From Mesostigma viride (taxonomy: Eukaryota; Streptophyta; Mesostigmatophyceae; Mesostigmatales; Mesostigmataceae): a DNA stretch of 64,000 nt. This document shows positions 12,907 to 47,654 of the stretch, one piece after another. Location: positions 64,001 through 128,000 of the forward strand of contig RPFO01001993.1 of assembly GCA_009746045.1 (NCBI GenBank), in the 5' to 3' direction. A program made the translations under genes and the position numbers. Below the pieces are notes generated by a model, which saw nothing but the letters and a program-made list of their open reading frames with translations, was not told the origin of the DNA and made no database searches. The stretch's first letter is position 1, and each line of letters starts with the position of its first letter.

Positions 12907-12932
12907 ATGGCGAGCGCAGCTCCTGTTGTCGA
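12907..12932 (+). CDS. CFAP43: CFAP43 exon 1 (start, 26 bp)
   Basis: ATG then ASAAPVV and two bases of a Glu codon, followed by a GTACGT donor. Its phase (2) is what exon 2 needs, and the join gives VVECVLGYG, which matches the expected N-terminal propeller start of CFAP43. No transcript evidence. Confidence 0.6.

Positions 12933-47654: not shown

Follow-up and report, generated by a model that had tools for sequence, protein, structure and literature searches.

Decayed tandem copies of exon edges and splice sites in introns of the CFAP43 gene of the streptophyte alga Mesostigma viride

The closest described counterparts of the sequences considered here are the mirages of amphioxus, which were reportedly described by Canestro in 2002. 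In the lancelet PGBD5 paper (PMC3902484), mirages are cited from globin, Adh and troponin C genes, and imperfect tandem repeats of 60 and 108 bp are described over splice sites. A link from mirages to intron gain has been proposed (PMC3087553), and tandem genomic duplication is given as a documented route of intron gain in a review (PMC3443670). Introners (PMC9860276) are repeated sequences tied to introns in which one element is copied into many genes. Among the literature matches listed, boundary copies could be recognised by title or abstract start only in descriptions of amphioxus, and none of the matches listed for green algae had a title on boundary copies. For Mesostigma, the genome paper (PMC6947507) reports that repeats occupy 30.1% of intron space and that mean intron length is 1141.9 bp; the term 'tandem repeat' is absent from its main text.

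The window analysed here is a stretch of 64,000 nucleotides of Mesostigma viride DNA (GenBank assembly GCA_009746045.1, contig RPFO01001993.1, positions 64,001 to 128,000). By a spliced alignment on the + strand, the gene under study was identified as that of the M. viride predicted protein Mesvir1 Mv08936-RA (P0001), which is encoded letter for letter at 12907-47651 by 29 exons separated by 28 introns and followed by a TAG stop codon at 47652-47654. When the joined CFAP43-like reading frames were used as query, matches were obtained with Mv08936-RA (of 7998 scored candidates, 2 proteins reached E <= 1e-20) and with four distinct FAP43/CFAP43 chains of solved structures. Intron ends of CFAP43 were GT-AG in 27 cases and GC-AG in one, intron 24 (41802-42638), whose first two bases are GC in place of GT. 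Next to CFAP43, on the - strand, lies a CCCH zinc-finger gene corresponding to Mv08935-RA, and eight of its introns entered the comparisons described below, intron 1 (33 bp, in frame and doubtful) and everything beyond exon 10 (aligned in scattered pieces only) having been dropped from the model. The 33-bp 'intron' of the public Mv08935 model, at 10287-10319, is in frame and open and is probably a prediction artefact. At 1-2718, the C-terminal third of this model aligns poorly past exon 10; the exons in question may lie outside the window, a fused gene model being the other possibility.

The repeat load of the window amounted to 99 TRF rows, with 25.5% of the sequence masked, and TRF arrays covered on average 23.5% of a CFAP43 intron and 1.9% of a CFAP43 exon. 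The longest array, at 58421-64000, holds about 140 copies of a 40-bp unit (84% matches) and runs on to the end of the window. Young arrays were noted at 51251-51771 (GATG, 130 copies) and in CFAP43 intron 16 at 31172-32011 (40-bp unit, 21 copies, 97% matches). An open frame at 52918-53790 resembles, by a motif, a piece of a reverse transcriptase, and elements of the same sort may account for the frames near 375-877 (- strand) and at 48664-50088.

Sequences resembling exon edges were found within the adjoining introns of CFAP43 in numbers far above those obtained from swapped exon-intron pairings. In a narrow test of the 28 CFAP43 introns, in which a query of 30 exon bases plus 20 intron bases was aligned to the next 250 bases of the intron, scores of at least 28 were reached by 7/28 donors and 6/28 acceptors, whereas none of 756 swapped donor pairings and none of 756 swapped acceptor pairings reached this score. 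A wide test with 60 exon and 20 intron bases as query was applied to 36 introns (28 of CFAP43 and 8 of the CCCH gene), the threshold being the 99.9% level of 1260 swapped exon-intron pairs. Above this threshold were 9/36 donors (CFAP43 introns 2, 6, 15, 16, 19, 20, 25, 26 and 27) and 6/36 acceptors (CFAP43 introns 18, 19, 20, 23, 25 and 27), as compared with 1/1260 swapped donor pairs and 0/1260 swapped acceptor pairs, and all 15 of these edges belong to CFAP43. The match at the acceptor of intron 18 was a plain CA dinucleotide run only; without it, intronic copies of the edge, here called echoes, were present at 14 of 56 CFAP43 edges, or about a quarter. Donors of introns 10 and 11 and the acceptor of intron 12 scored above their own 70 swapped pairs and below the 99.9% level. 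The echoes of CFAP43 are a real feature.

The first-pass annotation of this DNA had listed echoes at 14 edges of CFAP43 and in one CCCH intron, and had suggested a genome-wide comparison of self-matches with shuffled pairings; on the 36 introns of the window, a comparison with swapped pairings gave a clear excess of self-matches. Twelve of the 14 listed edges stood, comprising eight of the ten donors named (introns 2, 6, 9, 15, 16, 20, 25, 26, 27 and 28) and, in the wide test, all four acceptors named (before exons 21, 24, 26 and 28). The donors of introns 9 and 28 were lost, 4/70 and 5/70 swapped pairs, respectively, being as good, as was the CCCH intron, since none of 8 donors and none of 8 acceptors of that gene surpassed the wide-test threshold; its best donors, those of introns 3 and 5, were each equalled by 3/70 swapped pairs. 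Two echoes had escaped the earlier list, namely one of the acceptor before exon 20 and a weak one of the donor in intron 19.

On the donor side (all features of CFAP43 being on the + strand), the end of exon 2 with its 5' splice site (13462-13509) recurs in intron 2 at 13553-13598 with a shift of 91 and 39/46 identical bases, and a gapped match of 54/66 across the boundary reaches 13618 (locus 13462-13618). The corresponding segments of exon 6 (18989-19024) and exon 25 (42903-42930) are echoed in intron 6 at 19105-19140 (shift 116; 29/35) and in intron 25 at 43014-43042 (shift 111; 26/28; locus 42903-43044). The end and 5' splice site of exon 16 (30884-30962) are matched by an old gapped copy in intron 16 at 30984-31055 (54 bases identical, 17 different, 9 gap positions) and those of exon 19 (36395-36441) by the weak echo in intron 19 at 36528-36574 (33/47). 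At 37839-38280, the end of exon 20 and its 5' splice site belong to a 70-bp unit with donor-side copies in intron 20, of which three are near-identical and in tandem (69/70, 69/70 and 68/70) and three are partial. The exon 26 end with its splice site (44002-44042) is echoed at 44090-44131 (34/41) and weakly a second time at 44207-44221 (14/15; locus 44002-44221), and that of exon 27 (44645-44672) is followed in intron 27 by two decayed units, one at 44764-44876 (83/100 plus 26 gap positions) and one at 44895-44939 (35/43; locus 44645-44939).

Acceptor echoes lie upstream of the edge that they resemble. The 3' splice site and start of exon 20 (37707-37732) are echoed at 37635-37660 (shift 72; 22/26), and those of exon 26 (43959-43988) at 43865-43894 (shift 94; 25/30), where the AG of the echo has been lost. 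Exon 21 is preceded by decayed copies at 38329-38365, 38377-38456, 38485-38538 and 38540-38626, which are irregularly spaced (locus 38329-38721), the nearest copy of the 3' splice site and exon start (38684-38721) occurring at a shift of 95 with 34/38 identical bases. Exon 28, with its 3' splice site and start at 46159-46187, is preceded by decayed units at 45929-46005 (56/76) and 46041-46104 (52/63; locus 45929-46187). The repeats of introns 15 and 23 reach just to the splice site without taking in exon sequence: the 69-bp array of intron 15 (29103-29371) starts at base 2 of the intron, the T of GT, and the two-copy 83-bp repeat of intron 23 (41432-41592) ends at the last intron base before exon 24.

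Alignments ran straight across the exon-intron boundary at 10 loci, and such crossings occurred at both kinds of boundary, six being donors (introns 2, 6, 20, 25, 26 and 27) and four acceptors (introns 19, 20, 25 and 27). These alignments spanned 11-42 exon and 3-19 intron bases, with shifts of 70-126 bp and 83-100% identity in the aligned part; taken over all echoes, copies were spaced 69-126 bp apart. The intronic remainder of the unit was compared by local alignment with base shuffles, and in introns 16 and 19 the register deviated by as many as 22 bases; the remainder also matched at 8 of 13 tested edges (at most 9/300 shuffles) and, more weakly, at one more (13/300). At the donor of intron 2, both ends of intron 25 and intron 26, the remainder gave no match above shuffles, and a plain tandem unit is therefore not proved there. 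A whole-unit search brought out additional copies, spaced at multiples of the unit or close to them, in introns 15, 20 (donor), 26 and 27 (both ends), and irregularly spaced copies in introns 20 (acceptor) and 23. With the edge itself counted, three or more copies were present in introns 15, 20 (donor and acceptor), 23, 26 and 27 (donor and acceptor). Taken together, the edge alignments, unit remainders and further copies indicate that most echoes are, to judge from their sequence, the remains of short tandem repeats of which the outermost unit is the exon edge.

Both exon edge and splice site are contained in the copies, which form tandem units at most such edges and decay irrespective of codon position, the differences from the exon being evenly spread over positions 1, 2 and 3 (9/79, 10/78 and 12/77). 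We assign a probability of about 75% to the reading that tandem duplication sometimes straddles the boundary, that the exon copy is kept under selection while the intronic copy decays, and that edges are over-represented through persistence. By this mechanism, tandem duplication of segments of roughly 70-126 bp, of the kind that makes the minisatellites filling the noncoding DNA of this region and presumably caused by slippage or unequal exchange, would sometimes span an exon-intron boundary. Splicing would stay at the outermost site, probably the one used in mRNA, and leave the exon unchanged, and the extra copy, consisting of exon edge, splice site and some intron, would end up inside the intron. 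Selection would hold the exon copy and leave the intronic copy free to decay, with the result that the duplication would remain recognisable as an echo; from some echoes, short arrays would grow.

Edge crossings were assessed by locus counts and simulation. An ungapped scan, from which segments of low dinucleotide entropy were left out, gave 46 loci; six, having units shorter than 20 bp or a CAG composition, were removed by hand. In the resulting list of 40, the unit length of the intron 21 locus was set by hand, the intron 6 row was replaced by the gapped echo locus, and introns 16 and 19, whose donor echoes are weaker, were left out with respect to those echoes. Edges were crossed by 10 of these 40 complex loci with units of at least 20 bp, as opposed to 3.84 predicted by uniform placement (P 0.003); crossings in introns 2, 6 and 25 (donor) depended on gapped alignments, the ungapped scan flagging seven loci. 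In a neutral simulation with uniform births, the edge rate was 1.30-1.42 times the interior rate because the exon-anchored copy stays visible longer, the factor being 1.25 for young and 1.60 for old loci. Expected crossings rose to 5.17 at a visibility factor of 1.42 (P 0.025) and to 6.81 at a factor of 2 (P 0.12). When the donors of introns 16 and 19 were included, 12/42 loci crossed (P 0.007 at factor 1.42), and in an earlier hand list 10/32 crossed, as against 6.0 predicted for a factor of 2 (P 0.057). The overall edge excess (10/40, about 5 expected) is modest and hinges on how crossings are called.

A birth hotspot at exon-intron boundaries, arising for instance from breaks that accompany transcription or splicing, would account for crossings above the neutral expectation (10/40 against 4.95 expected, P 0.019 at factor 1.35), for their frequency among units of at least 60 bp (10/15 cross, where even a factor of 2 predicts 4.1, P 0.0015, in that hand list and for a size class picked post hoc) and for the results outside TRF arrays, where scores of at least 28 were noted for 5/32 and 4/29 edges as compared with 1.6-2.0% of 964 interior 50-mers (1.5% upon random re-pairing). 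With arrays counted, however, 25.5% of interior intron 50-mers had a self-match of at least 28, which is not below the edges (7/36 and 6/36), and the excess was not significant when only the seven ungapped crossings were considered (P 0.25). Moreover, the evidence comes from a single gene, with 0/8 CCCH introns contributing. The age of loci also spoke against preferential birth. Only 2/25 loci with a best-pair identity of at least 0.90 crossed an edge (1.7 expected) whereas 8/15 loci below 0.90 did so (2.1 expected), and with the cut at 0.85 the corresponding values were 4/28 for young loci (2.15 expected, P 0.16) and 6/12 for old ones (1.7 expected). Fisher P values for the age split ranged from 0.002 to 0.052 over four cuts, a comparison confounded by unit length, since young loci mostly have shorter units than the old crossing ones. 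In these assignments, the CCCH intron 5 locus, which has no measurable identity, was counted as old, and that of the exon 28 acceptor was placed among the young ones on the strength of 29 bases, although its whole unit matches at 52/63. The old class was also more enriched at edges in the simulation, but only 1.6-fold.

The lack of a clear excess among young loci, together with the excess among decayed ones, favours survival or visibility over birth, and a hotspot appears unlikely. The first-pass annotation had proposed that minisatellites are repeatedly born at exon borders: its reading of the echoes as decayed, mostly tandem units that include exon edge and splice site was borne out, while preferential birth was not, young loci having little or no edge excess. 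Most likely, edge over-representation reflects mainly the persistence and visibility of old duplications. In this one gene, a further edge excess beyond persistence is possible, and a plausible extra cause would be selection against contraction through a decayed echo, by which the exon edge would be damaged.

That echoes are retained as spare or decoy splice sites is improbable, even though the splice dinucleotides were kept in 6/6 donor echoes (GT) and 3/4 acceptor echoes (AG) and 5/10 echo sites scored at or above the 99th percentile of background GT or AG sites. Descent by itself can explain the retention of GT and AG, and splice-site scores follow from it as well; four of the ten sites were down at the 84th-87th percentile, use of the echo site would shift the frame in 8/10 cases, a stop was present in 3/6 donor extensions, and the exonic parts decay alike at all codon positions. 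The annotated gene model uses the outer splice sites. Selection for a coding or splice function of the copies was rejected on the even codon-position decay, frame shifts and stops, and the echoes are apparently neutral and freely decaying. Collapse or duplication of a short sequence during assembly, to which tandem repeats are prone, is more improbable still, given that duplicated or repeated reads would not produce the 3-17% difference between copies noted in 9/10 crossing loci, the copies of the tenth being identical over 34 aligned bases. A gain of the introns themselves through tandem duplication of an AGGT segment in an exon, with echoes as its remains, would be in keeping with the documented route and the proposed link to mirages cited above, but the hallmark likeness of donor and acceptor within an intron was absent (0/36 introns scored at least 24, with mean scores of 13.6 for own and 13.8 for swapped ends), and with no intron of 36 having alike ends this origin was rejected as scarcely credible.

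Returning to boundary-spanning duplication with a decaying intronic copy, a wider role for it can be put forward only tentatively. It is doubtful, if conceivable, that in Mesostigma, and perhaps in other minisatellite-rich genomes, such duplication goes on continually across the genome, marks a considerable proportion of exon edges, exceeds the uniform expectation there, adds length to introns inward from their ends and maintains a reservoir of near-copy splice sites. An echo forms a pair with one frozen member because selection holds the exon copy and not the intronic one, and such pairs could serve to measure rates of duplication and decay in introns and could show how often cryptic splice sites arise.

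Among known systems, the human interferon-induced gene 6-16 (G1P3/IFI6) is said to contain a minisatellite that gives multiple splice donor sites, several of them reportedly in use. The likeness to CFAP43 lies in splice donors within a minisatellite at an exon edge; G1P3/IFI6 is a single human locus with reported use of several donors, whereas the echo sites of CFAP43 are known from sequence alone. Introners share with the echoes a link of repeated sequence to introns; an introner-like family was rejected for the edges of this one gene, since none of 756 swapped donor and none of 756 swapped acceptor pairs scored at least 28. Intron gain by tandem genomic duplication likewise involves tandem duplication with splice-like sequence inside a gene, but there the copies bound a new intron, whereas in CFAP43 they lie inside an existing intron with unlike ends. 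Mirages, known from amphioxus Adh3, the globins BflGb6 and BflGb9 and troponin C, were the closest. In both cases, tandem units span the boundary, be it at the 5' or the 3' end of the intron, with unit lengths within 10-160 bp, AG or GT often kept and the exon unchanged. The CFAP43 echoes differ in that they are mostly decayed (83-93% identity in 8/10 crossing loci) and mostly of low copy number, and in that they occur in one gene of a streptophyte alga, known here from one haplotype and an annotated model. The first-pass annotation had known of no description of such copies as a systematic process, but the amphioxus mirages are of the same kind. These comparisons suggest that mirages are no oddity of amphioxus and are a by-product to be expected wherever tandem duplication is frequent, the echoes of CFAP43 being, by their sequence, the same kind of thing in a new lineage.
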